Of a stretch of 64,000 nucleotides of DNA, positions 2,053 to 25,337 are shown piece by piece. The DNA lies in assembly GCA_034231615.1 (NCBI GenBank), contig CM067302.1, forward strand, positions 11,708,820 through 11,772,819, read 5' to 3'. The translations under genes were made by a program, and so were the position numbers. Numbering within the stretch: position 1 is the stretch's first letter; the number at the start of each line of letters is the position of its first letter. The notes beneath the pieces are model-generated. The model made no database searches. It had not been told where the DNA came from and saw only the letters and a list, made by a program, of their open reading frames with translations. The DNA is from Meghimatium bilineatum. Taxonomy: Eukaryota > Mollusca > Gastropoda > Stylommatophora > Philomycidae.

Positions 2053-2268
2053 ATGGTTTATATATCGTTCGCCCTGTCCGGCACCAGAATCATGTTTCAT
2101 AGGAATGTGTTGTTTCTTCTTGTTATTCTGGTATATTTAAATATATCTATAACTATAGCAAAGAAAGATAAACACAGTAAAGGCAACGACGAGTCAGAAA
2201 AATGGAAGAAGAAAGACGTAAGAGATTATAACGATGCTGATGTGGAGCGCCTCTTGGAACAGTGGGAG
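2053..2268 (+). CDS. MESD: MESD exon 1 (coding part)
   Basis: It encodes the signal peptide and the conserved DYNDAD segment. The donor GT is at 2269 directly after a complete GAG codon (phase 0). ATGs at 2053 and 2092 are in frame. The second sits immediately before the run FHRNVLFLLVILVYL and is the likelier start. Confidence 0.92.
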
Positions 2269-5200
2269 GTAGGGTGAAAAATACGGTTGTTTAGGCCTGC
2301 TTGATATAGTACTTGTTATTAAATGCCATGAAAGTATGCCTATAATAATACTCAGTACTGTGGGCCTACCAGTCATCATTACTTTACTCTTGTGCCAAGC
2401 TTGACACATGGCAGATTTCATAGTTCGGTGAAAGTACAGAATAGTTCTCCTGCTGTGCTATATATAATAAATAGCACCACACTGTTGACAATTTTAACTA
2501 TCCAACGTCATGGGTTCCCGTGTAACACCAATCAAAATAATGGCTGCCGTGACATCACATCCCGACAATCCCACAGTTCAACTTTAGACACAGACAAACT
2601 TATGCATAATCTATTTGTTTTCCAATTTACACATTTTTTACAATTTCCTATTATTTGTGGTGAGCGATCAGTATTTCTGCCCGCTACACATGGAGCAAGG
2701 TGCGCGCACATATTAGAAATATTATTTCTAATCCTATCCTTATTCTAAGTACTTACCATAAGCTTGCCAAACCACACAACAAAGGTCAGGTAACACCTCG
2801 AAGCTAGAGCAAAGGTCACAGCGGAGAACTATAATGTACTTCAGCCCATAGTTCTCCATGCTTGTCAATCAACAGACACTGAGACAGTACAGTACAGATG
2901 GTTGTTTCAGATCGTTTGTTTTCATACCAGTTGTTGTGATTTCTTTTTCGATAGTTCTTTTCAGTGTTGGTTTTTATCTTCCCCTTTTTCTCTTGCCTCT
3001 TGGTGACCATGTAAAGACTTAACGTGGTATTCTGTCTTCATTAATTCTGAGTGAGTGACCGATGTATGCCACGCATGTGGCATGTGGTTGCATCTGTGGG
3101 TCTCACCAATGGCCCACTATGTGTCAAAATGTTGTTGTCGGTTTGTTTTTATTCAGGCTGTAGGCATGACCTTCTATCGATAAATATATATATATAAGAG
3201 CTCTTGACTATTTGGAAAACATGCAAAGTTGAGCAGGGCCGTAGATATAATCTCCCTAAGGGAGGTTTTATTTTTGTGCCAGGACATGTGAGAGTCCGGG
3301 GTAATGAAAGAGCAGATAGGTTGGTCACACACGTGGCTACTATTGACGTTGGTGGATTGATGGATCTGGCAGACATTTTGAACACCCTATGGGAAAACAC
3401 ATGAACAAATGACTATACGTGACTATGACTCTTGTTCCATGACTAGAATGGTGGAGCTTGGTTTGAAATGTGGTGTCGCTAGAAAGGAGCGGTTACATGG
3501 GCAAGAAAGAATTATGGTCAATCAACGGCGCACTGGGACCGTGAGTCAACGTGTAATGGCGGATACACTCAAGAAAAGATCTGAGCACCTATGGACTTGT
3601 CCAGAATGCAGCGATAAATGATCCAACGACTGACTAACTCAACATGTTATGTTGTTATTTATCACTTCTACTTAAATTATTGTTGCGGGTGTGGATTAAT
3701 TTGCTGTATTCTTGCATATTTTGTGTTTTACAGGAATCGGATGATGATAAACTGGAAGAGGATGAATTGCCAGAGTGGAAAAGAGAACCGCCAAAGATTG
3801 ATTTGACACACATTGATCCACAAGATCCGGAAGGTTTTCTCAAGATGTCCAAGAAGGGACGGACACTGATGATGTTTGCTACAGTCTCAGGTCCAGAATT
3901 GCCTATCTGTGTTCAGTTTGTTTGTTCTTTTGTTTGATTGGAATATCATTATATCTAAAGTTTCAATTTGTTAATACTGAATCTTTCAGGATATCTGAAT
4001 TGATTCTTTCATGGGTGTCTAGTTTATCAATGCTAGATTATTTCATGGGTCTAGTTTGTTACTGTTAGATTATTTCCTGGGTGTCTAGTTTGTTAGTGTT
4101 AGATTATTTCCTGGGTGTCTAGTTTGTTAGTGTTAGATTATTTCCTGGGTGTCTAGTTTGTTACTGTTAGATTATTTCCTGGGTGTCTAGTTTGTTACTG
4201 TTAGATTATTTCATGGGTGTCTAGTTTGTTACTGTTAGATTATTTCCTGGGTATCTAGTTTCATATTATGATAGTTCCAACTATCATAGAATAGTTGTGA
4301 TTCATATAACCAACCCTAAATATAACCCCAACTATGATAAATAAAAGTGATATGTTTATTTGATCATATATGATTATATCTGCATAGTGCACAGATGACC
4401 AATGATTATGTTTTTATAATGAATAAATAACCCATGATTCTGTCTGTATAATGAGCAGATAACCCATGATTATGTCTGTATCATGAGTAGATAACCCATG
4501 ATTATGTGGGTTTATGTTTTATTTTATCAAACACAATTGTATTTTATGTCCTATGAATGTGGCGAAGGGAGATAATGTTTGCTTGTTCCTGTTTGTTTTT
4601 GCAGGAAATCCCACAGAGCAAGAGACAGAGGTGATCTCCAGCTTGTGGCACAGCAGTCTGTTCAATGCTCACTTTGAAGCACAGAGGTCAGCAAGATTGA
4701 TTATTTCCATAATATATCTAATTACGTAAAACACAGTTTTTAGAGCGTTCTACTTAGACATGACGGACTATCACTAAAACTAGGGGGTAGTGATAGTCCA
4801 TCGTGTCAAAGTGGAGTGCTCTAAAAACCTGTGTTTTACGTAAGTACAATTGTTGTTACGTTTCACGCAGTATTACCATATATTGATTGTCGTATCTGTA
4901 ATAAAATTCTGTTCATCTTGTTTTAACACTTTGCTCACCAGCAATCCAGAGTGTACTTGTCCACTATTACCGAGGGTGTACACAAAATTTCATACATTGA
5001 CATCACCGTCTTTAAAAATTCATATAAAATCGATCTAGCACAAGAGATTCTTGAAACTTCCTGTGTCGTAACAACTGTTTGCACTTTCTGAATGAATTTG
5101 AAAGCTCCAGAGTTATTTCATGCTCAAAATGCTACTTATCATAATGCTAGACCTAGATTTACATTAATTTCTATATATCATACAATGTTACCTTTGAAAT

Positions 5201-8200
5201 CTCCCGATATTTATTGATAAAAACTAATCTTCGATGTCTATATCTGTATTCCAGACGTGCTGCTATTTTTTAGTGACATTATTGCAATGGGTATTACCAT
5301 TTTTTCGATCTATAATAGCGCTTTCGACAATTGTCGAAATTGGTCAGCAAGGATCAATAACGGAAATTCATCTATCATCAAAATTGGTCAGGAAAGTGTT
5401 AATGAATTCACTCTTTGTTTTGCTGAGTAATGTCCACACTGTCAGGCAAGCCTGATCGATGAACTCCCCCATTGTATGAAACTCTTCTTTGGTTCCATAT
5501 ATTTTTGCTTACAGGGTTGCGCCGTTGGGTCAGTACGTCTCTCTCAATTGTTCATACTGGGGACAGTTCTGCAGAATATGTTCAGGGGTTTGTTCAGTCT
5601 GTTGTGTCCTGTCCTTAGGCAAAGTATGGTGACCTGTCCCTGCTGATTTAGGTAGTGGTAGGCATACCGCAATGTGATGGTACCCACAGAAGTACAGTTC
5701 TGCTCTATTTTGCTTACTCTTTTGTATCACACTGTATCAGACACCCACCCACTAAATCTGTCACACTGTATCAGACACCACCCACTAAATCTGTCACACT
5801 GTATCAGACACCACCCACTAAATCTGTCACACTGTATCCGACACCCTCCCACTAAATCTGTCACACTGTATCAGACATGCACCCACTTCATTTTCTATCC
5901 ATCTTCCTAACCCACTTCATTTTCTAATACCTCTGTCCATCTCCCAAATCGCCTTCATTTTCTAAAGCCTCTGTCCATCTCCCAAATCTCCCTTCCTTTT
6001 ATAAAACCCTATACATCTCCCAAATCTCCTTCATATTCTAAGACCTCTATCCATCTCCCACATCAACTTCCTTTTTTTATCCATCTTCCAAGCGCACTTT
6101 CTTTTCTAAGACATCTGTCCATCTCCCAAATCTTTATTATCTAATATATCTACTGTATCCATCTCCCTAATCTCCATTTTCTATCAATTTTTCAAATCCA
6201 CTTCATTTTTGAAAACCTCTATGTGCTGTCCATCAACTTTTTCATCTCTACCTCTTTCTCCCAGACGTCTTCACTCTCTTTGAACTAAATCCAGCCACCC
6301 AAATCTCTAAGACCATTCACTCCATCATCAGATATGTCGTTGGGAGCAACAGGGTGCTGTTTATGTTGAAAGATGGAGCCAAGGCTTGGGAGATTCGAAA
6401 CTTCTTGGTGCAACAGGAGCGATGTGAGGAAGTCTCTATTGAAGGTCAGAGCTATCCAGGAGCAGGAGCAACCAATGTGAGTCTTTGTAATTATCTGTCA
6501 CTTTTTGTGAGTCCACCATCATGTCTCTTGATATGCATCTATTTATCACTTGATGTGTGTCCGTGTCACTTTATGTGTTCATCTGTCACTTTATGTGTAG
6601 CTAGCTGTCTGTCCATCTGTGTCATTTGATATGTATCCGGTGTTGCTTTATGTGTACATGTGTGTGTCCATCTGTCAGCTTGTATGTCTATTTGTCACTT
6701 TATGTGTCCTTCTTTACAGTAAAAAAAGAGTGCATCATCTTGTGAAAATAGAAATGCTGCAGCCCATCAGCGGAGAGTAGCTAGAAAGAACAAACTCCTT
6801 CTACAGTTGTCATTCCATGCCCATAATATCCAAGAATGTTTGCAGCTTGAATAGTGCTCATTAGTGAACTAATAGGCATGGACATAACTCTAACTGAATT
6901 TTCAAAAGTGGATGTAACAAATAGTCTCCATCATTTGTGATGGATGAACACACACAATTACAGTGAAACCTCGGTTTTTGTTGCAGACTTCGGTTATCGT
7001 CGCTTTTGATTTTTTTCCACTAATAATTTGTATGTTTTTGTCAGTTGTCTCAGATTTCATCCATAAGTTTGGGGGTGAGGATGTAGAAGAGTTAGTAAAT
7101 GACCATAGTGAAGAACTCACCACTGATGAGCTGCAATACCTTCACCTAGAAGAGCAATAGATGGCAGATGTAGAAGTTGCTTCAGATGAGAAGGTAGAGA
7201 CGGGTGTATGCGACCTGTTCAAAGATTAGGACATCTTCATGAAACAACACTGGAATCAAAACTCTATGGGACACTGTCAGTTAGTCAGTTAGTCGTCGGA
7301 TCATCATCACTGCAAACTGGACACATCCATAGTTGCTCCGATCTCTCCTTGAGTGTATCCGCCATCACACTTCTGCTGACAGTACCGGTCCTATGCTGGT
7401 TGACCATCATTCTTCTGCGCCCTCCAAAATGTTCACCTCTAGCAACACCGCATCTCAATCCCTGATCTTTAATCCTAGCCATTGAAAAGGAATCATCATC
7501 CACATTCGTCTCACTCTCGCGTGTTATATCTCTTAAGGAGTTCAAAACGTCAGTGCGATCCATTGCCCCATCGCCCTTTGCCACAATCGCACACGATGCC
7601 AGTTGATCCGCTCTTTCATTGCCTCGAACGCCCACATGTCCCGGCACGAAAATAAATGGGACACTGTATGAACTACAAAAGACAGTGAGTTTTATTAAGG
7701 AGACAGAATTACAGATATAGACATGTTTCAAGTGAACGAAAGAAGAAGAAGAAGGACATCTCCATGTATAGTATGGTACAAGGGTGTATGCGACCTGTTC
7801 AAAGATTAGGACATCTTCATGTATAGTATGGTACAAGAGTGTATGCGACCTGTTCAAAGATTAGGACATCTTCATGTATAGTATGGTACGGGGGTTTATG
7901 GAAAAGAAGTAACTCAGACAAAGCTGTCTCCATCGAGACCAGCACCGTGCAGAGGTGATGGGGCTTAGTTCAGCCATCAGGGGCTGGAAACTAAGACTGG
8001 TCGGGCAGTCCCACTCGAGCAGGACCATAGTCCTGCCCTAGTAAGCAGAGTGCTGAAGACGGAGGCATCCAGCCAAAAGGCGCACAGATAATCAGGATGC
8101 CACGCACAAAACACAATGGAAACATGTCTACATCTATAAATAGTTATGGTGCCTGCCCTGTGGCGGACGTTCAGGCAGGGACGGTGCCGGGCCCTATACC

Positions 8201-11200
8201 TCGAAAGGGCCCAACCTCAGTTACTGGAAGTCCTTCTCAATTGCCCCGAGGAGCCAGGAGGCAAGGGAATAGAGCTACTGGCCAAACAAACAAACGACCA
8301 ATAAAAATAATGCACTGGAATGCTGAGGGTGTCAACAGTAAAAGAGATAGATACAGCAAAAAATTGGAACTTGAAAATGTCCTCAGTGAAGAACAAGTTA
8401 ACATATGCTGTATCCAAGAAACACACCTCAGCAGCGACATAGCCTTCAAAATCAGAGGCTACCAGTGCTACCGATGTGACCGAAAGGACAGGCGAAAGGG
8501 TGGAATTCTGACACTTGTTAAAAACAATATCAGCGCATGTCAGCTGGAAGTATATATGGAAGGGGCAGAATACCAGATGCTCCACCTAAAAACAGACAGT
8601 GCAGAATTCCACCTCCTGAACTACTACTGCCCAAATGATAAACCATTGGCACTAGACACAATTCCAGACAAAGAGAGACTTATGGTGTGTGGTGACTTCA
8701 ACAGCCACTCTCAGAGCTGGGGCTACGATCATATCGACAAGAGAGGTGAGGAACTTGAGAGCTGGCAGGATGAAAATAATCTCATCCGTATTAACCAGCC
8801 AGCTGACTCACCAAACTTCTACTCGAGAGCATGGCACACCACCTCTACACCAGATCTGGCATTCCACTCACCAGGCCTGGAATGGAACATCACACGTGTT
8901 GTTGGAAAGCAGCTTGGGGGTAGTGACCACAGACCAGTATTTCTGGAAATCCACAATGAATTTACCAAGGACAGCAGCACGCTCACTAGGTGGAACTATA
9001 AGAGGGCAGACTGGAAAATGTACCAGCATTTAACCAGTGTTCTAGCTAAGGACATGAACTTGGACAAAGACATCAATAGAGCAGTGAGTGAATTTAATAA
9101 ATGTATACTACATGCTGCTAGTAAAACCATACCCAGGGGAGCACGCAAAAACTACAAACCCTACTGGAATGATGAACTGGAAAAGCTGCAAAATGAGATG
9201 GAAACATCTAGACAGCAGGCTGAGAACAGACCTAGCCAAGAACATCACAACAAATATCAGCAAACAAAGGCTAAATTTCAAAGAGCCAAGTTACAAGCCA
9301 GACGGAGTAGCTGGAAAGAAAAAACAGAGTCGCTGAACCTAGAAAGAGATACTAGGAAATTATGGAAACTTGTAAAACAACTAAATGATGAAGGTACAGG
9401 GAGAAATACCAGGATCACACTTTATAAAGATAGAGACATTTTAACAGGTAAACATGCAGCTGATTACTTTGCAGATTCCTTTGCAGAAGACAATAACATC
9501 AAAGTCAGCCCAGACAAACAACAGGAGGTTCGAGAGAACCAGCAAAACATTGGACAAGGCGAACCTATACCTGAAGTCATGGAGGCACCAATCACAATGA
9601 GAGAACTGGAGCATGCAATATCCAAATTGAAAATGAAAAAGTCCCCTGGAGCTGATGGAGTGTCCAATGAAATGATTAGAAACCTGGGAATTGCAGCAAG
9701 AGCAAAGCTACTGCAGATCTTTAACACAAGCTGGTCCACGGGTAATGTACCACAGGCGTGGAGAGAAGCAATAATGATACCACTCCTCAAATCAGGAAAA
9801 GATGGCAACACAGTCTCCAACTACAGGCCCATCAGCCTCACAAGCTGTCTATGCAAAACAATGGAACGCATTATCAATCTTAGGATGCAGTGGTACCTTG
9901 AAAGTGAAAACCTTCTGGTATCACAGCAAGCAGGTTTCAGACAGTGCTACTCTACTGAAGATCAGGCAACCTACCTCTCCCAAGAGATTGAGGATGCCTT
10001 CCAAGAAAAGAAACTGGTACTAGCAGCATGGATAGACCTCAGGAAAGCATTTGATAAGGTCTGGAAAGAAGGGCTCCTAAAGAAATTGCGAAATTGCAGG
10101 GTTAGCTCAAGAATGTACAAATGGGTAAAAACATACCTGCATAATAGAAGAGCTAGGGTACAATTAGATGGTCGCAAGAGCAAGAAGGTTCTACTGCGTC
10201 ATGGAGTCCCCCAGGGAGGAGTCCTGTCGCCCACACTTTTCTTGGTTTACATCAATGACCTAGTTGCTGAACTACCACACGGGATCAAAGTGGCAATGTA
10301 TGCTGACGACCTGGTGATCTGGTGCACAGAAGAACATGCGACAGTGGCCACTAAACAAATACAAAGAGCTATCGATGCCCTAACCTTATGGCCTAATAGA
10401 TGGTGCGTCAGCATTAACACAGATAAGTGCAGCACTACACTTTTTACCCTCTCACCAAAACAAAAAGCCGGTCATATTAAAATAGATGGAGAGCTCTTGA
10501 AAGAAGACAAACAACCCACATACCTCGGAGTTACTTTTGATGATAAACTGACATGGAAGCAGCACATAAACAAAGCAACAACAAAAGCCAGGAGGAAGTT
10601 AGCTATCCTGAGAAAACTAAGTGGAACCACATGGGGAGCCAGTGGGAATATACTCAGTAAAGTTTACCAGCAAGGCATAAGACCACACCTGGAATATGGT
10701 TCAGCAGCATGGTGTCCTGCATCAAACACCACATTACAAGATCTAGATAAAGTGCAAAACCAGGCACTTAGAATAATGTTGGGAGCAATGAAATCAACAC
10801 CCATAACAGAGATGCAGAAAATGGGAAGAATGCAAACACTTGGCGAACGCAGAGACACAAAGTACTAATTCAGGCAGAAAAGTTTCATTGTATGCCAAGT
10901 CATCCAATGAAGGAGAGATTCCAAAATCTAGCAATGGGACGACTGAAAAGAAGCAGCTTTATCCATCAAGCTAAACGACTCCGCAGACAACTTACAGACC
11001 TACCTGAAGTTGACAGCCCCTTAAGGCCTGTACCAGAACAAACCCCGTGGAGTGAAAGGCATGGAATGCCAATATACATTCAGACCCATGTGAAAGGAAT
11101 ACTAAGCGAGGACGAACAGAACAGTGTGCAGCGAAGGACAGTCACCCTCAGTTTCCTGGATGAGGAATATCCACAAGATATATGGGTCAGAGTATACACA

Positions 11201-14200
11201 GATGGGTCAGCACAGAATGCCGTGAGGAATGGAGGTGCAGGTGTATATATAGAATATCCACACAAGCCTAGAGATACAATCAGAACACCGACAGGAAAAT
11301 TCTGCAATAATTATGATGCAGAAATCCAGGCAATTAGTGTGGCAGCTAAAAAACTGCTGAACTCCAACTCTGACCTACAGCCTGTGGTATTCCTGACAGA
11401 TGCAAGGTCAGTGCTTCAAGCTCTCCAGTCTGGAAAACTAACAGACTTGAAAAAACTACTTAGCGAATTGTCTTACCAGTATAGGGTAACCATGCAGTGG
11501 ATACCCTCTCACTGTGGAATACCAGTAAATGAAAAAGCAGACCAACTGGCTAAGGAAGGTGCTGCCGAAGACCAACCAGATATACCAATCACCTACCATC
11601 AGAAAAAACAGATGATCAAGTCAATAAGAAAGCCACAAACACCAACACAAGATGACTATCATATTATGAACAGACCAGAACAAGTTATAATTCTACGTCT
11701 CAGAACGGGACACAACCAACTCCGCAGTCACATGTATGCAAAGTTCAAGATTGGCAACACAGCCATGTGTACATGTGGACAGGCAGCACAGAGTGCCAAA
11801 CATATACTTCAAGAGTGTTCTGAGCATGAAACGCTGAGGCAGACATATTGGCCAGAGGAAACAACACTGGAATCAAAGCTCTATGGGACACTGTATGAAC
11901 TACAAAAGACAGTGAGTTTTATTAAGGAGACAGAATTACAGATATAGACATGTTTCAAGTGAACGAAAGAAGAAGAAGACAAAGCTGTTGCAGGCCGTGT
12001 CTGTAACTTGTTTTGATGTGTTGCCCTATTTTAGGCAAATCTTAAAGAGGCTGCAGAAACAGGCCTGTTTGGACAGATTTCTTGTGCTGTATATGTCCAC
12101 TAACTCTGCAGCTGGTCCTAGTGCCAAAATACCAAGGGTAGTGACCCCAGATAGTGTCTTGATACCTGAAGTCCTTATGGAGAAGGATTTGCCTTCCAAA
12201 CAATAAAATGTCCTTTCCTCGCTGTCTTCCATACGCCAAGAAGAGTCTTCAGAAAAGTAAATGCCATGTTAAATGTTCATTTGTTCTTTACATTAGTCTT
12301 TTATGTTCATTTTATATTGTGTTTAGTATTAAACACTATATTTACTTTCTATAAATGTGTGTTTGGTACGTATTTTTGATTATCTTGAACAAATTAATTG
12401 GATTTACATTGATTCATATGTCATACCTCGACTTTTCTAATAGCTGTGCTGAGGGTCCTCTTTTCTTGATAGGTGATTTCTTGATATTTTTGTTCCTGTT
12501 TTGCTCCATCTTTTGCCACTTCATTTCTTGTGCTGCTCCATATCTGCCTTTTCATTTCTTAGTATGACACACTTAACTTTATGAATGCATTGCATTTGAC
12601 CGTTTTTGGCATGATGGATCCATTATATATCTATCTATGTGATGTGTCTTTAACAGAATGTTATCCTCACTGCCACTCTGTAAGCCTCTTGGTTCTGTAC
12701 AAGCTGTCCAGCTTCTTCCATTGTCGTGTTTAGAAAGTCCTCGATGTAGTATCTTGGCATTGTATACGTTTACGTGGTTTTCCATTGCTTTTTGAGCCAG
12801 TTCTGGTCTCTTATCAGTTACCATCCGGGGTGCAAAGGGAACACAATGCTCTAGGCGGACCCAGGGTTAGCAGATAACCAAGATCCCAAATGTACCTCCA
12901 CGCGGTGCACCCTGGAAACGGAAATACAGCAGCTCGAGCTGATTCTGGCCAAATCATTTGGGGATCGTGTCCGAGAATGTGGAGGTAGCAGATGGAAAGA
13001 GATTTGCCTGCACAAGAGACAGACAATATCTCCGACACCACCAGCATCACCACATATAGCGACACTGTCGACATACAGTGAAGCTAGTCAGTCCAGTCCG
13101 AACATTGGAGGGGCGGCCAATGTAAAATGCACGCAAAGGTAGATGCATGGCGAGAGACATAGATTTCATACCGAGTACAATGAAACAATGAAAGGGCAGA
13201 ACAGCGCTAGAGGGCAGCGCGAACTGCAAATAGAAAGTGAAAAGTCCCTAGGAAAGGGGAACTACAAGCTCCGTCAGCTCGAGACAAGCTTCTAGTTACC
13301 TGTGTTCCTTACAGGCAGAGACCCAGACCCATTCATTGGCATTTGGTAAAGCAAGAAGACCTAATCCAACTCTAATGTCGAGCCTTCCTAAACCGGAAAT
13401 ATGATCGCGAAGAGAAAGGGTTCCGTACTTGATGCGCTCAGGCACAAAAGGGACAACGATTTAGCCCTGGCCCAACTCTACTGTCAGGTTTTCCTACACC
13501 GGAAATACACTTGAAGAGAGAAAGGGTTCAGTACCTGATGGGCTCAGGCGCTATTGGGACAAGGACGCTCAGCTCGAGAACGCCATGCTCTCAAACGCGT
13601 GGTGTGAGACTCGAACTTGGACAAGGGGTACACGATGTCGGTGAATGACACCTTGGCTAAGAGGGCGAAAGAGCCAGGGTCCAGCTCTTCTGTTGAGTTC
13701 TTCCCCTTAAGGAACCAGGCTCACGGATGAGAAACGGTTCAGTACCCAATGGGCACAGGCACAACACGTCCAATTACACGAGGCAAGTTCATAGACAGTG
13801 GAACACCTCGTTCGAGTCAGACAAGAGCACAAAAAAAATCGTCTGGGCGAAGAGTCTCCACTACGCGTGCCTGGAGACAGATATAGAGGCTGTCACAGGC
13901 TAAGGGTAGCCCACCCGAATTGTCAGGCATGCCGAAATCGGATGTGCTAGGCCTACAAGGCGCATAACTGTGGCACAACGTAATCACGCTCCCGGCGGAA
14001 ATCGCACGGATATCCGTGATGGTTACAATGGAGCGAACGAAAAACAAACAAACAAAAGTTACCATCCTTGGTGTGCCCTTAGCCCAATACAGGGTCATTC
14101 AACTTACTGTCATCAAAACCATTGTTGATAATATGATCAGCAATTCTATATACTGTATAGGAGGACACCCACTTGCTGAGGAGCTTCACGTAATTTGACC

Positions 14201-17200
14201 AACTAGGCGAGATCATTCTCTGGTATATACTGTATAGGAGGACACCCACTTGCTGAGGAGCTTCACGTAATTTGACCAACTAGGCGAGATCATTCTCTGG
14301 TATATACTGTATAGGAGGACACCCACTTGCTGAGGAGCTTCACGTAATTTGACCAACTAGGCGAGATCATTCTCTTGTATATATTGTATAGGAGGACACC
14401 CACTTGCTGAGGAGCTTCACGTAATTTGACCAACTAGGCGAGATCATTCTCTGGTATATACTGTATAGGAGGACACCCACTTGCTGAGGAGCTTCACGTA
14501 ATTTGATCAACTAGGCGAGATCATTCTCTGGTATATACTGTATAGGAGGACACCCACTTGCTGAGGAGCTTCACGTAATTTGACCAACTAGGCGAGATCA
14601 TTCTCTGGTATATACTGTATAGGAGGACACCCACTTGCTGAGAAGCTTCACGTAATTTGACCAACTAGGCGAGATCATTCTCTGGTATATACTGTATAGG
14701 AGGACACCCACTTGCTGAGGAGCTTCACGTAATTTGACCAACTAGGCGAGATCATTCTCTGGTATATACTGTATAGGAGGACACCCACTTGCTGAGGAGC
14801 TTCACGTAATTTGACCAACTAGGCGAGATCATTCTCTTGTATATATTGTATAGGAGGACACCCACTTGCTGAGGAGCTTCACGTAATTTGACCAACTAGG
14901 CGAGATCATTCTCTGGTATATACTGTATAGGAGGACACCCACTTGCTGAGGAGCTTCACGTAATTTGACCAACTAGGCGAGATCATTCTCTGGTATATAC
15001 TGTATAGGAGGACACCCACTTGCTGAGGAGCTTCACGTAATTTGACCAACTAGGCGAGATCATTCTCTTGTATATATTGTATAGGAGGACACCCACTTGC
15101 TGAGGAGCTTCACGTAATTTGACCAACTAGGCGAGATCATTCTCTGGTATATACTGTATAGGAGGACACCCACTTGCTGAGGAGCTTCACGTAATTTGAC
15201 CAACTAGGCGAGATCATTCTCTGGTATATACTGTATAGGAGGACACCCACTTGCTGAGGAGCTTCACGTAATTTGACCAACTAGGCGAGATCATTCTCTG
15301 GTATATACTGTATAGGAGGACACCCACTTGCTGAGGAGCTTCACATAATTTGACCAACTAGGCGAGATCATTCTCTGGTATATACTGTATAGGAGGACTC
15401 CCACTTGCTGAGGAGCTTCACATAATTTGACCAACTAGGCGAGATCATTCTCTGGTATATACTGTATAGGAGGACTCCCACTTGCTGAGGAGCTTCACAT
15501 AATTTGACCAACTAGGCAAGATCATTCTCTGGTATATACTGTATAGGAGGACTCCCACTTGCTGAGGAGCTTCACGTAATTTGACCAACTAGGCGAGATC
15601 ATTCTCTGGTATATACTGTATAGGAGGACTCCCACTTGCTGAGGAGCGTCACGTAATTTGACCAACTAGGCGAGATCATTCTCTGGTATATACTGTATAG
15701 GAGGACTCCCACTTGCTGAGAAGCTTCACGTAATTTGACCAACTAGGCGAGATCATTCTCTGGTATATACTGTATAGGAGGACACCCACTTGCTGAGGAG
15801 CTTCACGTAATTTGACCAACTAGGCGAGATCATTCTCTGGTATATACTGTATACGAGGACACCCACTTGCTGAGGAGCTTCACGTAATTTGACCAACTAG
15901 GCGAGATCATTCTCTGGTATATACTGTATAGGAGGACTCCCACTTGCTGAGGAGCGTCACGTAATTTGACCAACTAGGCGAGATCATTCTCTGGTATATA
16001 CTGTATAGGAGGACTCCCACTTGCTGAGAAGCTTCACGTAATTTGACCAACTAGGCGAGATCATTCTCTGGTATATACTGTATAGGAGGACACCCACTTG
16101 CTGAGGAGCTTCACGTAATTTGACCAACTAGGCGAGATCATTCTCTTGTATATATTGTATAGGAGGACACTCACTTGCTGAGGAGCTTCACGTAATTTGA
16201 CCAACTAGGCGAGATCATTCTCTGGTATATACTGTATAGGAGGACACCCACTTGCTGAGGAGCTTCACGTAATTTGACCAACTAGGCGAGATCATTCTCT
16301 GGTATATACTGTATAGGAGGACACCCACTTGCTGAGGAGCTTCACATAATTTGACCAACTAGGCGAGATCATTCTCTGGTATATACTGTATAGGAGGACT
16401 CCCACTTGCTGAGGAGCTTCACATAATTTGACCAACTAGGCGAGATCATTCTCTGGTATATACTGTATAGGAGGACTCCCACTTGCTGAGGAGCTTCACA
16501 TAATTTGACCAACTAGGCAAGATCATTCTCTGGTATATACTGTATAGGAGGACTCCCACTTGCTGAGGAGCTTCACGTAATTTGACCAACTAGGCGAGAT
16601 CATTCTCTGGTATATACTGTATAGGAGGACTCCCACTTGCTGAGGAGCGTCACGTAATTTGACCAACTAGGCGAGATCATTCTCTGGTATATACTGTATA
16701 GGAGGACTCCCACTTGCTGAGAAGCTTCACGTAATTTGACCAACTAGGCGAGATCATTCTCTGGTATATACTGTATAGGAGGACACCCACTTGCTGAGGA
16801 GCTTCACGTAATTTGACCAACTAGGCGAGATCATTCTCTGGTATATACTGTATACGAGGACACCCACTTGCTGAGGAGCTTCACGTAATTTGACCAACTA
16901 GGCGAGATCATTCTCTGGTATATACTGTATAGGAGGACTCCCACTTGCTGAGGAGCGTCACGTAATTTGACCAACTAGGCGAGATCATTCTCTGGTATAT
17001 ACTGTATAGGAGGACTCCCACTTGCTGAGAAGCTTCACGTAATTTGACCAACTAGGCGAGATCATTCTCTGGTATATACTGTATAGGAGGACACCCACTT
17101 GCTGAGGAGCTTCACGTAATTTGACCAACTAGGCGAGATCATTCTCTGGTATATACTGTATAGGAGGACACCCACTTGCTGAGGAGCTTCACATAATTTG

Positions 17201-20200
17201 ACCAACTAGGCGAGATCATTCTCTGGTATATACTGTATAGGAGGACACCCACTTGCTGAGGAGCTTCACATAATTTGACCAACTAGGCGAGATCATTCTC
17301 TGGTATATACTGTATAGGAGGACACCCACTTGCTGAGGAGCTTCACGTAATTTGACCAACTAGGCGAGATCATTCTCTGGTATATACTGTATAGGAGGAC
17401 TCCCACTTGCTGAGGAGCTTCACATAATTTGACCAACTAGGCGAGATCATTCTCTGGTATATACTGTATAGGAGGACTCCCACTTGCTGAGGAGCTTCAC
17501 ATAATTTGACCAACTAGGCAAGATCATTCTCTGGTATATACTGTATAGGAGGACTCCCACTTGCTGAGGAGCTTCACGTAATTTGACCAACTAGGCGAGA
17601 TCATTCTCTGGTATATACTGTATAGGAGGACTCCCACTTGCTGAGGAGCGTCACGTAATTTGACCAACTAGGCGAGATCATTCTCTGGTATATACTGTAT
17701 AGGAGGACTCCCACTTGCTGAGAAGCTTCACGTAATTTGACCAACTAGGCGAGATCATTCTCTGGTATATACTGTATAGGAGGACACCCACTTGCTGAGG
17801 AGCTTCACGTAATTTGACCAACTAGGCGAGATCATTCTCTGGTATATACTGTATACGAGGACACCCACTTGCTGAGGAGCTTCACGTAATTTGACCAACT
17901 AGGCGAGATCATTCTCTGGTATATACTGTATAGGAGGACTCCCACTTGCTGAGGAGCGTCACGTAATTTGACCAACTAGGCGAGATCATTCTCTGGTATA
18001 TACTGTATAGGAGGACTCCCACTTGCTGAGAAGCTTCACGTAATTTGACCAACTAGGCGAGATCATTCTCTGGTATATACTGTATAGGAGGACACCCACT
18101 TGCTGAGGAGCTTCACGTAATTTGACCAACTAGGCGAGATCATTCTCTTGTATATATTGTATAGGAGGACACTCACTTGCTGAGGAGCTTCACGTAATTT
18201 GACCAACTAGGCGAGATCATTCTCTGGTATATACTGTATAGGAGGACACCCACTTGCTGAGGAGCTTCACGTAATTTGACCAACTAGGCGAGATCATTCT
18301 CTGGTATATACTGTATAGGAGGACACCCACTTGCTGAGGAGCTTCACATAATTTGACCAACTAGGCGAGATCATTCTCTGGTATATACTGTATAGGAGGA
18401 CTCCCACTTGCTGAGGAGCTTCACATAATTTGACCAACTAGGCAAGATCATTCTCTGGTATATACTGTATAGGAGGACTCCCACTTGCTGAGGAGCTTCA
18501 CGTAATTTGACCAACTAGGCGAGATCATTCTCTGGTATATACTGTATAGGAGGACTCCCACTTGCTGAGGAGCTTCACGTAATTTGACCAACTAGGCGAG
18601 ATCATTCTCTGGTATATACTGTATAGGAGGACTCCCACTTGCTGAGGAGCGTCACGTAATTTGACCAACTAGGCGAGATCATTCTCTGGTATATACTGTA
18701 TAGGAGGACTCCCACTTGCTGAGGAGCTTCACATAATTTGACCAACTAGGCGAGATCATTCTCTGGTATATACTGTATAGGAGGACTCCCACTTGCTGAG
18801 GAGCTTCACATAATTTGACCAACTAGGCAAGATCATTCTCTGGTATATACTGTATAGGAGGACTCCCACTTGCTGAGGAGCTTCACGTAATTTGACCAAC
18901 TAGGCGAGATCATTCTCTGGTATATACTGTATAGGAGGACTCCCACTTGCTGAGGAGCGTCACGTAATTTGACCAACTAGGCGAGATCATTCTCTGGTAT
19001 ATACTGTATAGGAGGACTCCCACTTGCTGAGAAGCTTCACGTAATTTGACCAACTAGGCGAGATCATTCTCTGGTATATACTGTATAGGAGGACACCCAC
19101 TTGCTGAGGAGCTTCACGTAATTTGACCAACTAGGCGAGATCATTCTCTGGTATATACTGTATACGAGGACACCCACTTGCTGAGGAGCTTCACGTAATT
19201 TGACCAACTAGGCGAGATCATTCTCTGGTATATACTGTATAGGAGGACTCCCACTTGCTGAGGAGCGTCACGTAATTTGACCAACTAGGCGAGATCATTC
19301 TCTGGTATATACTGTATAGGAGGACTCCCACTTGCTGAGAAGCTTCACGTAATTTGACCAACTAGGCGAGATCATTCTCTGGTATATACTGTATAGGAGG
19401 ACACCCACTTGCTGAGGAGCTTCACGTAATTTGACCAACTAGGCGAGATCATTCTCTGGTATATACTGTATAGGAGGACACCCACTTGCTGAGGAGCTTC
19501 ACGTAATTTGACCAACTAGGCGAGATCATTCTCTGGTATATACTGTATAGGAGGACACCCACTTGCTGAGAAGCTTCACGTAATTTGACCAACTAGGCGA
19601 GATCATTCTCTGGTATATACTGTATAGGAGGACACCCACTTGCTGAGGAGCTTCACATAATTTGACCAACTAGGCGAGATCATTCTCTGGTATATACTGT
19701 ATAGGAGGACACCCACTTGCTGAGGAGCTTCACGTAATTTGACCAACTAGGCGAGATCATTCTCTGGTATATACTGTATAGGAGGACTCCCACTTGCTGA
19801 GGAGCTTCACATAATTTGACCAACTAGGCGAGATCATTCTCTGGTATATACTGTATAGGAGGACTCCCACTTGCTGAGGAGCTTCACATAATTTGACCAA
19901 CTAGGCAAGATCATTCTCTGGTATATACTGTATAGGAGGACTCCCACTTGCTGAGGAGCTTCACGTAATTTGACCAACTAGGCGAGATCATTCTCTGGTA
20001 TATACTGTATAGGAGGACTCCCACTTGCTGAGGAGCGTCACGTAATTTGACCAACTAGGCGAGATCATTCTCTGGTATATACTGTATAGGAGGACTCCCA
20101 CTTGCTGAGAAGCTTCACGTAATTTGACCAACTAGGCGAGATCATTCTCTGGTATATACTGTATAGGAGGACACCCACTTGCTGAGGAGCTTCACGTAAT

Positions 20201-23200
20201 TTGACCAACTAGGCGAGATCATTCTCTGGTATATACTGTATACGAGGACACCCACTTGCTGAGGAGCTTCACGTAATTTGACCAACTAGGCGAGATCATT
20301 CTCTGGTATATACTGTATAGGAGGACTCCCACTTGCTGAGGAGCGTCACGTAATTTGACCAACTAGGCGAGATCATTCTCTGGTATATACTGTATAGGAG
20401 GACTCCCACTTGCTGAGAAGCTTCACGTAATTTGACCAACTAGGCGAGATCATTCTCTGGTATATACTGTATAGGAGGACACCCACTTGCTGAGGAGCTT
20501 CACGTAATTTGACCAACTAGGCGAGATCATTCTCTTGTATATATTGTATAGGAGGACACTCACTTGCTGAGGAGCTTCACGTAATTTGACCAACTAGGCG
20601 AGATCATTCTCTGGTATATACTGTATAGGAGGACACCCACTTGCTGAGGAGCTTCACGTAATTTGACCAACTAGGCGAGATCATTCTCTGGTATATACTG
20701 TATAGGAGGACACCCACTTGCTGAGGAGCTTCACATAATTTGACCAACTAGGCGAGATCATTCTCTGGTATATACTGTATAGGAGGACTCCCACTTGCTG
20801 AGGAGCTTCACATAATTTGACCAACTAGGCGAGATCATTCTCTGGTATATACTGTATAGGAGGACTCCCACTTGCTGAGGAGCTTCACATAATTTGACCA
20901 ACTAGGCAAGATCATTCTCTGGTATATACTGTATAGGAGGACTCCCACTTGCTGAGGAGCTTCACGTAATTTGACCAACTAGGCGAGATCATTCTCTGGT
21001 ATATACTGTATAGGAGGACTCCCACTTGCTGAGGAGCGTCACGTAATTTGACCAACTAGGCGAGATCATTCTCTGGTATATACTGTATAGGAGGACTCCC
21101 ACTTGCTGAGAAGCTTCACGTAATTTGACCAACTAGGCGAGATCATTCTCTGGTATATACTGTATAGGAGGACACCCACTTGCTGAGGAGCTTCACGTAA
21201 TTTGACCAACTAGGCGAGATCATTCTCTGGTATATACTGTATACGAGGACACCCACTTGCTGAGGAGCTTCACGTAATTTGACCAACTAGGCGAGATCAT
21301 TCTCTGGTATATACTGTATAGGAGGACTCCCACTTGCTGAGGAGCGTCACGTAATTTGACCAACTAGGCGAGATCATTCTCTGGTATATACTGTATAGGA
21401 GGACTCCCACTTGCTGAGAAGCTTCACGTAATTTGACCAACTAGGCGAGATCATTCTCTGGTATATACTGTATAGGAGGACACCCACTTGCTGAGGAGCT
21501 TCACGTAATTTGACCAACTAGGCGAGATCATTCTCTGGTATATACTGTATAGGAGGACACCCACTTGCTGAGGAGCTTCACGTAATTTGACCAACTAGGC
21601 GAGATCATTCTCTGGTATATACTGTATAGGAGGACACCCACTTGCTGAGAAGCTTCACGTAATTTGACCAACTAGGCGAGATCATTCTCTGGTATATACT
21701 GTATAGGAGGACACCCACTTGCTGAGGAGCTTCACATAATTTGACCAACTAGGCGAGATCATTCTCTGGTATATACTGTATAGGAGGACACCCACTTGCT
21801 GAGGAGCTTCACGTAATTTGACCAACTAGGCGAGATCATTCTCTGGTATATACTGTATAGGAGGACACCCACTTGCTGAGGAGCTTCACGTAATTTGACC
21901 AACTAGGCGAGATCATTCTCTGGTATATACTGTATAGGAGGACACCCACTTGCTGAGGAGCTTCACGTAATTTGACCAACTAGGCGAGATCATTCTCTGG
22001 TATATACTGTATAGGAGGACACCCACTTGCTGAGGAGCTTCACATAATTTGACCAACTAGGCGAGATCATTCTCTGGTATATACTGTATAGGAGGACTCC
22101 CACTTGCTGAGGAGCTTCACATAATTTGACCAACTAGGCGAGATCATTCTCTGGTATATACTGTATAGGAGGACACCCACTTGCTGAGGAGCTTCACATA
22201 ATTTGACCAACTAGGCGAGATCATTCTCTGGTATATACTGTATAGGAGGACTCCCACTTGCTGAGGAGCTTCACATAATTTGACCAACTAGGCGAGATCA
22301 TTCTCTGGTATATACTGTATAGGAGGACTCCCACTTGCTGAGGAGCTTCACGTAATTTGACCAACTAGGCGAGATCATTCTCTGGTATATACTGTATAGG
22401 AGGACACCCACTTGCTGAGGAGCTTCACGTAATTTGACCAACTAGGCGAGATCATTCTCTGGTATATACTGTATAGGAGGACTCCCACTTGCTGAGGAGC
22501 TTCACGTAATTTGACCAACTAGGCGATATCATTCTCTGGTATATACTGTATAGGAGGACTCCCACTTGCTGAGGAGCGTCACGTAATTTGACCAACTAGG
22601 CGAGATCATTCTCTGGTATATACTGTATAGGAGGACTCCCACTTGCTGAGAAGCTTCACGTAATTTGACCAACTAGGCGAGATCATTCTCTGGTATATAC
22701 TGTATAGGAGGACACCCACTTGCTGAGGAGCTTCACGTAATTTGACCAACTAGGCGAGATCATTCTCTGGTATATACTGTATAGGAGGACACCCACTTGC
22801 TGAGGAGCTTCACGTAATTTGACCAACTAGGCGAGATCATTCTCTGCTATATACTGTATAGGAGGACTCCCACTTGCTGAGGAGCGTCACGTAATTTGAC
22901 CAACTAGGCGAGATCATTCTCTGGTATATACTGTATAGGAGGACTCCCACTTGCTGAGAAGCTTCACGTAATTTGACCAACTAGGCGAGATCATTCTCTG
23001 GTATATACTGTATAGGAGGACACCCACTTGCTGAGGAGCTTCACGTAATTTGACCAACTAGGCGAGATCATTCTCTGGTATATACTGTATAGGAGGACAC
23101 CCACTTGCTGAGGAGCTTCACGTAATTTGACCAACTAGGCGAGATCATTCTCTGGTATATACTGTATAGGAGGACACCCACTTGCTGAGAAGCTTCACGT

Positions 23201-24163
23201 AATTTGACCAACTAGGCGAGATCATTCTCTGGTATATACTGTATAGGAGGACACCCACTTGCTGAGGAGCTTCACATAATTTGACCAACTAGGCGAGATC
23301 ATTCTCTGGTATATACTGTATAGGAGGACACCCACTTGCTGAGGAGCTTCACGTAATTTGACCAACTAGGCGAGATCATTCTCTGGTATATACTGCAACA
23401 ATTTTATTTTGACACCACAATCATGAATGTGAATTGGTTGAACTTATATTTTGACACCACAATCATGAATGTGAATTGGTTGAACTTGATATTTTGACAC
23501 CACAATCATGAATGTGAATTGGTTGAACTTGATATTTTGACACCACAATCATGAATGTGAATTGGTTGAACTTGATATTTTGACACCACAATCATGAATG
23601 TGAATTGGTTGAACTTGATATTTTGCCACCACAATCATGAATGTGAATTGGTTGAACTTGATATTTTGCCACCAAAATCATGAATGTGAATTGGTTGAAC
23701 TTGATATTTTGCCACCACAATCATGAATGTGAATTGGTTGAACTTATATTTTGACACCACAATCATGAATGTGAATTGGTTGAACTTATATTTTGACACC
23801 ACAATCATGAATGTGAATTGGTTGAACTTGGTATTTTGCCACCACAATCATGAATGTGAATTGGTTGAACATGATATTTTGCCACCACAATCGTGAATTG
23901 GTTGAACTTGATATTTTGCCACCACAATCATGAATGTGAATTGGTTGAACTTGGTATTTTGCCACCACAATCATGAATGTGAATTGGTTGAACTTGATAT
24001 TTTGCCACCACAATCATGAATTGGTTGAACTTGATACTTTGCCACCAAAATCATGAATGTGAATTGGTTGAACTTGATATTTTAATATAAATCTATTCTT
24101 CAGAAAAGCAAAGTCAGTGATAATAAAAAGACATCAAAGAAGGACAAGAAGGAAGAACTATAA
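2092..24163 (+). CDS. MESD: LRP receptor chaperone MESD (five exons, spliced)
   Basis: Joining 2092-2268, 3734-3890, 4605-4686, 6332-6476 and 24104-24163 gives 621 bases, 206 residues plus stop. MESD family proteins act in the endoplasmic reticulum as folding chaperones for the beta-propeller/EGF modules of LRP-type receptors (LRP5/6 in vertebrates, arrow and yolkless in flies). Residues 1-23 form a hydrophobic signal peptide. DVRDYNDADVERLLEQWE ends exon 1. The family core follows: LPEWKREPPKIDL, SKKGRTLMMFATVSGNPTEQETE, SLWHSSLFNA, then VLFMLKDGAKAWEIRNFLV. A lysine-rich tail ends in KEEL, a KDEL-like ER-retention signal; vertebrate MESD and fly Boca end in comparable tetrapeptides. An upstream in-frame ATG at 2053 would add 13 residues; the ATG at 2092 gives the better signal peptide. 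Every junction has GT/AG ends and matching phase, so the gene looks intact. Intron 4 is 17.6 kb and nearly all repeat. Confidence 0.95.
2830..3015 (-). mobile_element. LINE-D tail fragment in MESD intron 1
   Basis: The minus strand reads a WSPRGKRKRGRPKTTL-like segment with frame breaks. This matches the better-preserved minus-strand copy at 30985-31440. Only the C-terminal part remains. Confidence 0.55.
3240..3645 (+). mobile_element. LINE-B 3' tail (RNase H end) in MESD intron 1
   Basis: Plus-strand frames read FVPGHVRVRGNERADRL, then LADILNTL, then VNQRRTGTVSQRVMADTLKK and a terminal EHLWTCPECSDK. This is the same C-terminal RNase H segment as the copies at 7278-7655 and 29215-29541. The copy ends in GACTGACTAACT and carries a frameshift near 3400. 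Confidence 0.8.
3734..3890 (+). CDS. MESD: MESD exon 2
   Basis: The acceptor is TTTTACAG before GAATCGG. The exon reads ESDDDKLEEDELPEWKREPPK through SKKGRTLMMFATVSG, the most conserved part of the family. It ends with the first base of a glycine codon before GTCCAG, an acceptable but non-consensus donor. Confidence 0.93.
3988..4262 (+). repeat. 34-bp minisatellite, about 8 copies, MESD intron 2
   Basis: The phrase TTATTTCCTGGGTGTCTAG recurs every 34 bases (for example at 4073 and 4107). The first copies are the most diverged and the middle copies nearly identical. It lies about 100 bases past the exon 2 donor. Confidence 0.88.
4380..4507 (+). repeat. 32-bp degenerate tandem repeat, about 4 copies
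   Basis: AACCCATGATT followed by a TGTCTGTAT-like segment recurs at 32-base spacing (CCCATGAT at 4431, 4463 and 4495). Confidence 0.75.
4605..4686 (+). CDS. MESD: MESD exon 3
   Basis: An 82-base exon after a pyrimidine-rich TTTGTTTTTGCAG acceptor. It reads GNPTEQETEVISSLWHSSLF then NAHFEAQ, ending with two bases of an arginine codon before the donor GTCAGC. It restores the frame between exons 2 and 4. Confidence 0.93.
4722..4843. mobile_element. Hairpin (fold-back) MITE in MESD intron 3
   Basis: The two halves are inverted copies about 57 bases long. TTACGTAAAACACAG at the left reappears as CTGTGTTTTACGTAA at the right, and GGACTATCACTA pairs with TAGTGATAGTCC near the centre. A few mismatches show it is not a fresh assembly artefact. 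It begins 36 bases after the exon 3 donor. Confidence 0.82.
4927..5398 (+). mobile_element. TTAA-flanked MITE, family M2, copy 1 (472 bp)
   Basis: Flanked by TTAA at 4923-4926 and 5399-5402. The left end CACTTTGCTCACCAG and right end TTGGTCAGGAAAGTG form imperfect terminal inverted repeats. A second full copy with the same ends and interior lies at 39648-40155. TTAA target duplication is typical of piggyBac-type transposition. No coding capacity is seen. Confidence 0.85.
5455..5735 (-). mobile_element. LINE-I-related tail fragment
   Basis: The minus strand reads a TPEHILQNCPQYEQLRETYW segment and then IYGTKEEF. This parallels the C-terminal H-C zinc-binding and YGTLYELQ segment of LINE-I at 11790-11920, but is clearly more diverged. 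Confidence 0.65.
5735..5880 (+). repeat. 33-bp minisatellite, 4-5 copies
   Basis: TCACACTGTATCAGACAC followed by CACCCACTAAATCTG recurs every 33-34 bases in MESD intron 3. Confidence 0.88.
5880..6260 (+). repeat. Pyrimidine-rich degenerate tandem repeat before MESD exon 4
   Basis: Variants of CCATCTCCCAAATCTCCTTC plus TTTTCTAA recur about every 35-45 bases. The strand is strongly C/T-biased and runs up to 70 bases before the exon 4 acceptor, so it extends the local pyrimidine context. Confidence 0.7.
6332..6476 (+). CDS. MESD: MESD exon 4
   Basis: The acceptor is CATCATCAG. The first base completes the arginine codon from exon 3, then YVVGSNRVLFMLKDGAKAWE and the FLVQQERC segment follow. 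It ends on a full AAT codon before the consensus donor GTGAGT. Without splicing the frame stays open about 50 codons into intron 4. Confidence 0.93.
6962..7200 (+). pseudogene. pogo/Tigger-like transposase relic, left part
   Basis: It starts with an end-like sequence, CAGTGAAACCTCGGTTTTTG. It then reads GGEDVEELVNDHSEELTTDE and LQYLHLEEQ before a stop, resembling the acidic EEL segment near the C-terminus of Tigger-type transposases. The catalytic DDE region is absent, so an internally deleted copy is likely. The matching C-terminal part appears at 11989-12207, on the far side of the LINE insertions. Confidence 0.6.
7241..7752 (+). mobile_element. LINE-I 3' tail, 5'-truncated, itself interrupted
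   Basis: Bases 7241-7277 plus 7656-7752 match the last about 105 bases of the full LINE-I copy (11870-11975), including the A/G-rich GAAGAAGAAG end. The flanks AGGACATCTTCATG (7228-7241) and AGGACATCTCCATG (7753-7766) look like a 14-bp target duplication with one change. The middle is replaced by the LINE-B insertion at 7278-7655. Confidence 0.85.
7278..7655 (-). mobile_element. LINE-B 3' tail inserted inside a LINE-I tail
   Basis: The minus strand reads IFVPGHVGVRGNERADQLAS, MDRTDVLNSLRDI, RCGVARGEHFGG, VNQHRTGTVSRSVMADTLKE and LWMCPVCSDDDPTTN, then an ACTAACTAACTG tail. The 12-bp ATGGGACACTGT occurs on both sides (7266-7277 and 7656-7667), a target-site duplication within the LINE-I tail. 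The 5' end is truncated in the RNase H domain. Confidence 0.9.
8097..10868 (+). CDS. LINE-I endonuclease/reverse transcriptase
   Basis: A 923-codon frame. Residues about 68-285 form an exonuclease-endonuclease-phosphatase domain, which nicks target DNA: MHWNAEGVNSK, the QETHL glutamate, GDFNSHSQSWG, and SDHRPVF at the end. Reverse transcriptase follows: KKSPGADGVSNEMI, NYRPISLTSC, QQAGFRQCYSTEDQ, AWIDLRKAFDKVW, HGVPQGGVLSPTLF and the catalytic YADD box near 10300, then TYLGVTFDDKLTW. All core catalytic motifs are present. The frame stops at TAA 10866-10868, where the homologous reading continues one frame over. Initiation at 8097 is the first ATG of the frame; no obvious gag-like protein precedes it. 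Confidence 0.9.
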   Translation: MPRTKHNGNMSTSINSYGACPVADVQAGTVPGPIPRKGPTSVTGSPSQLPRGARRQGNRATGQTNKRPIKIMHWNAEGVNSKRDRYSKKLELENVLSEEQVNICCIQETHLSSDIAFKIRGYQCYRCDRKDRRKGGILTLVKNNISACQLEVYMEGAEYQMLHLKTDSAEFHLLNYYCPNDKPLALDTIPDKERLMVCGDFNSHSQSWGYDHIDKRGEELESWQDENNLIRINQPADSPNFYSRAWHTTSTPDLAFHSPGLEWNITRVVGKQLGGSDHRPVFLEIHNEFTKDSSTLTRWNYKRADWKMYQHLTSVLAKDMNLDKDINRAVSEFNKCILHAASKTIPRGARKNYKPYWNDELEKLQNEMETSRQQAENRPSQEHHNKYQQTKAKFQRAKLQARRSSWKEKTESLNLERDTRKLWKLVKQLNDEGTGRNTRITLYKDRDILTGKHAADYFADSFAEDNNIKVSPDKQQEVRENQQNIGQGEPIPEVMEAPITMRELEHAISKLKMKKSPGADGVSNEMIRNLGIAARAKLLQIFNTSWSTGNVPQAWREAIMIPLLKSGKDGNTVSNYRPISLTSCLCKTMERIINLRMQWYLESENLLVSQQAGFRQCYSTEDQATYLSQEIEDAFQEKKLVLAAWIDLRKAFDKVWKEGLLKKLRNCRVSSRMYKWVKTYLHNRRARVQLDGRKSKKVLLRHGVPQGGVLSPTLFLVYINDLVAELPHGIKVAMYADDLVIWCTEEHATVATKQIQRAIDALTLWPNRWCVSINTDKCSTTLFTLSPKQKAGHIKIDGELLKEDKQPTYLGVTFDDKLTWKQHINKATTKARRKLAILRKLSGTTWGASGNILSKVYQQGIRPHLEYGSAAWCPASNTTLQDLDKVQNQALRIMLGAMKSTPITEMQKMGRMQTLGERRDTKY
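10892..11947 (+). CDS. LINE-I RNase H and C-terminal zinc motif
   Basis: This 351-codon frame is probably the continuation of the upstream protein after a one-base frameshift around 10855-10865, because the frame is open before its ATG (LIQAEKF) and overlaps the upstream stop. It carries RNase H motifs in order: the YTDGSAQNAVRNGGAG catalytic aspartate block, NNYDAEIQAI, FLTDARSVLQAL, and WIPSHCGIPVNEKADQLAKE. A CTCGQAAQSAKHILQEC zinc-binding-like motif lies near the end. RNase H would remove the RNA strand during target-primed reverse transcription. The stop is at 11945-11947, followed by a 29-base tail. Confidence 0.88.
   Translation: MPSHPMKERFQNLAMGRLKRSSFIHQAKRLRRQLTDLPEVDSPLRPVPEQTPWSERHGMPIYIQTHVKGILSEDEQNSVQRRTVTLSFLDEEYPQDIWVRVYTDGSAQNAVRNGGAGVYIEYPHKPRDTIRTPTGKFCNNYDAEIQAISVAAKKLLNSNSDLQPVVFLTDARSVLQALQSGKLTDLKKLLSELSYQYRVTMQWIPSHCGIPVNEKADQLAKEGAAEDQPDIPITYHQKKQMIKSIRKPQTPTQDDYHIMNRPEQVIILRLRTGHNQLRSHMYAKFKIGNTAMCTCGQAAQSAKHILQECSEHETLRQTYWPEETTLESKLYGTLYELQKTVSFIKETELQI
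11989..12210 (+). pseudogene. pogo/Tigger-like transposase relic, C-terminal part
   Basis: It reads CFDVLPYFRQILKRLQKQA then CLDRFLV, which parallels the HFR-(7 to 9)-RQKQTSLDRFF end common in Tigger/Jerky-type transposases. It directly follows the right target-site duplication of LINE-I. An AATAAA lies at 12203. It is probably the displaced right half of the relic at 6962-7200. Confidence 0.6.
12211..12830 (-). other. Unassigned AT-rich stretch with one open frame
   Basis: The minus-strand frame 12824-12579 (81 codons) reads RPELAQKAMENHVNVYNAKI and further polar residues. I do not recognise it. It may be the remnant of an element protein. No splice sites tie it to MESD, and nothing else is evident. 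Confidence 0.3.
12830..14050. repeat. GC-richer unclassified repeat block in MESD intron 4
   Basis: Base composition is visibly richer in G and C than the surroundings and no long frame is open. The first about 300 bases share phrases with 50985-51370: GGGTGCAAAGGG, GGACCCAGGGTTA, GTGCACC..GGAAAC, ACATTGGAGGGGCGGCCAA and CGCTAGAGGGCAGC. The right part holds three diverged units near 13365, 13472 and 13681 with the common phrases CGGAAAT or GGAACC, then GAAAGGGTTCAGTACC..ATGGGC-CAGGC. It is probably a mobile element of unknown type. Confidence 0.6.
14147..23386 (+). repeat. 77-bp satellite, 120 monomers, with higher-order structure, in MESD intron 4
   Basis: The monomer begins TATATACTGTATAGGAGGAC and ends GATCATTCTCTGG. 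First start 14147 and array end 23386 give 9240 bases, exactly 120 x 77, and every monomer start checked falls in this phase, so no net insertion or deletion occurs. About ten substitution types distinguish monomers: GGACACCC or GGACTCCC, CACGTAAT or CACATAAT, GAGGAG or GAGAAG, AGCTTC or AGCGTC, GGCGAG or GGCAAG, TATAGG or TATACG, CTCTGG or CTCTTG. The variants follow a recurring order with a dominant period of 13 monomers (1001 bp). No frame is meaningfully open. Confidence 0.97.
23400..24084 (+). repeat. 43-bp satellite, about 16 copies, abutting MESD exon 5
   Basis: Units of GACACCACAATCATGAATGT plus GAATTGGTTGAACTTGATATTTT (42-43 bp, with a few shorter) run tandemly. GACACC units dominate the left, GCCACC units the right. 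The array starts at once after the last 77-bp monomer is cut off and ends about 20 bases before the exon 5 acceptor. Open frames across it are by-products of the period. Confidence 0.95.
24104..24163 (+). CDS. MESD: MESD exon 5 (terminal)
   Basis: The acceptor is TCTATTCTTCAG. It encodes 19 residues, KSKVSDNKKTSKKDKKEEL, then TAA. The lysine-rich tail and the KEEL end are what the family requires, which makes this the true last exon although it lies 17.6 kb from exon 4. The acceptor is only about 20 bases past the end of the 43-bp satellite. Confidence 0.92.
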   Translation, partial: KSKVSDNKKTSKKDKKEEL

Positions 24164-24758: not shown

Positions 24759-24762
24759 TTAA

Positions 24763-25075: not shown

Positions 25076-25169
25076 GCTGTGAAACCAGCAACACACTATA
25101 TGTCACGCTCCCCACCAGAAATCACATGTAATTTCATGTTGGTTTTCAGATAGCGAACGCAGGAGAAGA

Positions 25170-25290: not shown

Positions 25291-25337
25291 CGCAAATGAA
25301 AATAAATAACCAACAATAAAACAAGGACAATTTTCTA

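Follow-up and report, generated by a model that had tools for sequence, protein, structure and literature searches.

A tandem array of 120 monomers of 77 bp was found in intron 4 of the MESD gene of Meghimatium bilineatum, within an analysed stretch of 64,000 nucleotides, here called the window. The 77-mer was private to this locus, apart from diverged, single-pass relatives within a dispersed repeat. The array is best explained, and in our judgement very probably so, as a single-locus satellite that was born in place from the remnant of an old repeat and is carried as a passenger in the intron. Satellite beginnings are often hard to see, with the founder sequence lost or scattered. In this array, comparison of the flank with the dispersed family makes the founder segment legible, and the succession of monomer variants records growth in blocks. 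It can serve as a compact test case for models of how satellites first grow, in DNA expected to be transcribed; on MESD itself it tells little.

Positions, strand and supporting evidence of the features in and around MESD intron 4 (window coordinates)
Feature	Position	Strand	Evidence
MESD exon 1 (coding part)	2092..2268	+	gene-structure reading, genome match
MESD exon 2	3734..3890	+	gene-structure reading, genome match
MESD exon 3	4605..4686	+	gene-structure reading, genome match
MESD exon 4	6332..6476	+	gene-structure reading, genome match
LINE within intron 4, two frames (endonuclease + reverse transcriptase; RNase H)	8097..11947	+	Pfam
Left part of dispersed-repeat remnant	12630..12826	+	BLAST, alignment
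1.23-kb later insertion, (AAAC)n-like end	12827..14056	+	sequence; copy in L010
Right part of remnant, unbroken into monomer 1	14057..14223	+	collinear alignment, 8/8 copies
Tandem array, 120 full 77-bp monomers + 9 bp	14147..23395	+	TRF, grid alignment, pattern counts
Second array, 43-bp unit x 16	23405..24083	+	TRF, genome search
MESD exon 5, K-rich tail, ending KEEL-stop	24104..24163	+	acceptor, frame, ending

The array within MESD intron 4

TRF reported one 77-bp array (14147-23395, 120.1 copies, 0% indels, score 17,490). As an earlier note on this DNA had stated, 120 whole monomers filled positions 14147-23386; a 9-base partial copy (TATATACTG) follows and extends the array to 23395. With the array cut on a strict grid of 77 bases, each of the 120 monomers differed from the consensus by 0-3 bases. 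Thirty-one were identical to it, and the mean pairwise identity was 97.6%, in agreement with the recent amplification proposed in that note. Its estimate of about ten substitution variants is replaced by 12 variable sites and 15 distinct monomer types. Chance is ruled out as the source of the array. The absence of any net indel across the 77-base phase held on the grid and in TRF. Substitutions outnumber indels several-fold in general, and as the variable sites total only 12, an indel-free array would require no special constraint. The head-to-tail repetition of one unit, and the homogenised monomers with a block (higher-order) structure, are features of satellites and minisatellites.

The MESD open frame comprised 206 residues over five exons, separated by GT..AG introns. 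Its product, a chaperone of the MESD/boca type, matched the Pfam family Mesd (PF10185, E = 1.2e-69) and solved MESD structures (PDB 2kgl, E = 4.6e-64). A search of the genome with the protein gave four matches, which were exons 1-4 of the window locus, and found no second MESD copy (six candidates scored); exon 5 falls below the length that such a search can match. The Mesd profile stops at residue 192 and exon 4 at residue 187. Because the profile ends approximately where exon 5 starts, the support for exon 5 comes from its acceptor, frame and ending and not from domain homology. The KEEL ending is a putative ER-retention signal, which would keep the protein in the ER. Both strands of 6477-64000 (57.5 kb) were scanned for last exons in phase 0, with 8-60 residues and the ER-retention-type ending [KRHQ][DE][DE]L. 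On the plus strand exon 5 was the sole match, with two nested starts (24104 and 24131), and the minus strand of this region contained no such last exon. The outcome speaks for exon 5 being the genuine last exon of MESD and for an intronic position of the array. By this gene structure, MESD is apparently intact and the array is intronic, lying between exon 4 (ending at 6476) and exon 5 (starting at 24104), as the earlier note had it.

Intron 4 measured 17,627 bp, slightly more than half of which was occupied by the 77-bp array. The LINE in the same intron matched RVT_1 (4.7e-39), Exo_endo_phos_2 (2.1e-15) and RNase_H (2.1e-15). A stretch of 97 bases close to the end of this LINE (11883-11979) recurred unchanged at 7656-7752, and 11858-11894 recurred at 7241-7277 (97%). 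The recurrences within 7241-7752 probably belong to a second, shortened copy of the LINE family just upstream. The second array, with its 43-bp unit, ended 20 bases before exon 5; judging from this position, a tandem repeat probably contains or borders on the branch-point zone of intron 4. The 43-bp array was local, with one weak relative (75%) at G000:C8:43816037-43816134 in the genome search (two of two candidates scored), which could be a related locus. Past exon 5, a short dispersed repeat of approximately 115 bp (25179-25293) had eight relatives, which were distributed over both strands of the window (31661, 33739, 36036, 38647, 40314, 50417, 52913 and 55222), as well as an inverted partial copy at 25467-25548.

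Distribution of the 77-mer and of minisatellites in the genome

The genome searched, 1,612,235,226 bases long, is divided into 32 contigs. Three 77-bp monomers used as DNA queries recovered their own array and two weak single places, on C22 (79%, 63 bp) and C25 (87%, 45 bp); all three first-look candidates were scored. A 29-base pattern of the 77-mer, with up to two mismatches, gave 120 matches in the genome on a single strand, and the reversed control gave none. Since the array by itself contains 120 matches to this pattern, there is no match at any other place; the 100 among the matches listed were all within the array. Elsewhere in the window, the 77-mer had only matches of 10-18 bases (E of 1.8 or worse). 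The question, raised in the earlier note, whether the 77-mer is also a centromeric or dispersed satellite was thereby answered in the negative on both counts, as apart from its diverged relatives it was present at one locus only. An array at a single locus in a gene intron also differs from classical (centromeric or heterochromatic) satellites, which form long arrays at many or centromeric sites. A literature search on 77 bp satellite DNA monomers in molluscs found no such satellite.

Minisatellites were counted in a genome sample of 19 stretches of 10 kb (L011-L029) on 19 contigs, whose places had been chosen manually with the sequence still unseen. The counts were made with TRF (period of at least 10), rows overlapping by more than half being removed and remaining overlaps counted twice. 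The sample contained 147 arrays, which covered 21.4% of 190 kb, and the longest measured 2,306 bp. In the window 28 arrays were counted (4.4 per 10 kb, versus 7.7 in the sample). They covered 22.2% of its bases, or 7.7% without the 77-mer; apart from the 77-bp array, the window is poorer in minisatellites than the sample. TRF found several further minisatellites in the MESD introns. What is extreme about the 9.2-kb array is its length and not its kind, bearing in mind that 10-kb samples can truncate long arrays. That an array inside this intron is unusual, as had been claimed, thus stands for its length but not for its kind, which is common both in the sample and in MESD itself.

Source repeat and growth of the array

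Around the segment that matched the 77-mer, the two weak places on C22 and C25 (L009 and L010, respectively) aligned with each other over 331 columns at 73% identity. A query of the genome with the C22 element produced 2,121 first-look candidate places; 40 of these were scored and yielded 45 matches at E <=1e-3. Eight copies of this dispersed repeat were compared: L009, L010 and L030-L035, the latter found via L009 and not via the flank in the window. The flank portion of the repeat in the window consisted of 12630-12826 and 14057-14146, split by the 1.23-kb insertion. Direct repeats of 11 bp (AGTTACCATCC), at 12816-12826 and 14057-14067, bound this insertion. Over 501 aligned bases, the insertion was 96% identical to a copy in L010, from which its family looks young.

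With the insertion removed, the left flank together with monomer 1 aligned to eight of eight copies (E = 3e-52 to 3e-30, identity 68-71%), in one run per copy that stopped within or at the end of monomer 1. The run started in the leftmost remnant in three copies (L009, L034, L035) and at approximately 12737 in the other five. In the L030 and L033 stretches the leftmost part was placed elsewhere, and it was inverted in L030. Because flank and monomer 1 are collinear with all eight copies, the 77-bp monomer is a piece of the element in its native position. The homology of its monomer to a segment of a dispersed repeat makes the array a TE-derived satellite.

Each of the eight related copies contained the 77-bp segment as a single pass. 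This bears on the possibility that the array was inserted ready-made within a mobile element, as a central repeat of the Helentron/HINE type. Satellite-like arrays of the oyster travel inside non-autonomous Helentrons, as described in PMC7492417. The genome, however, contained no other 77-mer array, and the single-pass copies differ from an element that carries its array in many copies. We regard a ready-made insertion as highly improbable.

Counting against birth in place, the reading we prefer, are the leftmost part of the remnant, collinear with only three of the eight copies, and the right end of the array. BLAST of the eight copies against the array-masked window (E 1e-6) gave no match to the right half of the dispersed repeat in 23396-25178. 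At the right joint, the 9-base partial monomer is followed by nine further bases and then by the 43-bp array. Because the right half of the repeat is absent past the array, this joint is unexplained. The dispersed repeat possibly represents the 5' part of a LINE. Pfam was searched for LINE domains beside the parent repeat in two of the eight copies, L010 and L032, and no such domain was found in them at E 0.001. Frames beside the element weakly resembled a LINE endonuclease (Exo_endo_phos_2, E = 0.002 in L010 and 0.058 in L032, both below the curated cut-off). As a rule for this genome, a derivation of minisatellite monomers from dispersed repeats was not supported: monomers contained dispersed-repeat pieces no more often than random intervals did (23 of 117 monomers versus 162 of 585 random intervals), in a test that favoured the 77-mer, as L009, L010 and L030-L035 had been fetched for it.

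The order of the monomers repeated at lags of 57, 13, 31 and 44 (0.38, 0.34, 0.31 and 0.28 identical), above the maximum of 0.269 in 1000 shuffles (lags 1-60). Lags 43, 4, 27 and 17 (0.25, 0.24, 0.23 and 0.23) were within that maximum. The longest repeated order comprised 23 monomers, versus at most seven in 300 shuffles, and the longest exact internal repeats were 1,847 bp (lag 57), 1,250 bp (lag 31) and 1,131 bp (lag 27). The first 14 monomers, at the left end, were absent from the repeats of at least six monomers among those listed. The strong homogenisation noted earlier was present, and these repeated orders and exact repeats refine it as acting by blocks of many monomers. All four gametes occurred at the site pairs 21/35 and 21/44 of the monomer, which points to sequence exchange between monomers; at 21/44, where site 44 is a CpG, recurrent mutation could be an alternative. 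These observations point to unequal exchange or block duplication as the probable mechanism.

Exact internal repeats of 1.1-1.8 kb also make the array prone to misassembly. The real array could be much shorter or longer, and its copy number an artefact. Such an error would be compatible with birth in place, so that the odds of the two are not exclusive. Arguing against it are the ordered block pattern, the differing ends of the array, the other sequence on both sides and the absence of N from the window. Long reads of at least 10 kb would resolve an array of 9.2 kb. We consider an assembly error unlikely.

For birth in place we propose the following history. An old copy of the abundant dispersed repeat would have been resident in MESD intron 4, and a 1.2-kb retroposon-like element would also have entered this copy. 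A 77-bp segment of it would have been duplicated in tandem. Homologous, register-keeping exchange, either unequal crossing-over or block duplication linked to replication or repair, may have brought the array to 120 copies, with several to a few dozen monomers added at each step. As a passenger, the array would be transcribed within the MESD pre-mRNA and spliced out with intron 4.

The array might also be functional and, for example, tune MESD transcription or splicing or yield small RNAs. It sits in the sole MESD gene found, and transcription of the intron is expected. We found no fold above shuffles, no Rfam family and no long open frame that would speak for such a role, and minisatellites were everywhere in the sampled genome. 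On either strand, the monomer folded less stably than its shuffled versions did on average, and a ribozyme or structured RNA was rejected. A snoRNA match in six monomers was below the threshold (12.9 bits versus 39), and no Rfam family reached the gathering score in the window. No open frame of at least 100 residues was present within the array. AATAAA, ATTAAA, GTAAGT and GTGAGT were absent from the consensus dimer, an absence that chance alone predicts for a unit of such short length. A function thus appears very unlikely to us, and the array is best read as a recently expanded intronic passenger with no sign of function. We give little credence to a farther-reaching view, in which this is a satellite near its birth, with founder, parent repeat and growth blocks all legible, whose copy number varies between individuals and affects MESD processing.

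Relation to known systems

The growth of satellites from transposon parts, satellites in introns and arrays inside Helentrons have already been described (PMC4079207, PMC5844308, PMC6508621 and PMC7492417). At the level of the genome, the slug Deroceras laeve, rich in tandem repeats, is reported to have 31 chromosomes and approximately 1.78 Gb, with TRF adding 28.39% of the genome (PMC12506671). The 32 contigs, 1.61 Gb and 21% minisatellite in the sample recorded here resemble these values, a likeness that we take as a lead only.

In Drosophila virilis, the TIR-220 satellite arrays grew from parts of the Tetris transposon, as outlined in PMC4079207. Both there and in MESD, the monomers come from a dispersed element and amplification gave arrays of kilobase size. 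The TIR-220 repeats were, however, already in tandem within the element, and their growth was tied to beta-heterochromatin (PMC4079207), whereas the 77-bp array grew from a single-pass segment of an old remnant, at a single place within an intron. Like MESD, kl-3 and kl-5 of Drosophila are genes with satellite DNA in their introns, which are filled with it (PMC6508621). According to the same source, these introns contain megabases of simple repeats, were shown to be transcribed and involve RNA-binding factors. The MESD array is a 77-mer repeated over 9.2 kb, within an intron of 17.6 kb, and is predicted to be transcribed.

The TCAST repeats of Tribolium euchromatin are likewise satellite-type repeats in and near genes, with enrichment in introns. 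According to PMC5844308, they form dispersed families that occur preferentially as single repeats, in contrast to the one array at one place described here. The oyster Helentrons (PMC7492417) resemble our case in that tandem arrays are linked to dispersed elements. In that account the Helentrons carry their arrays in many copies, whereas in MESD intron 4 a single element copy bears the array.
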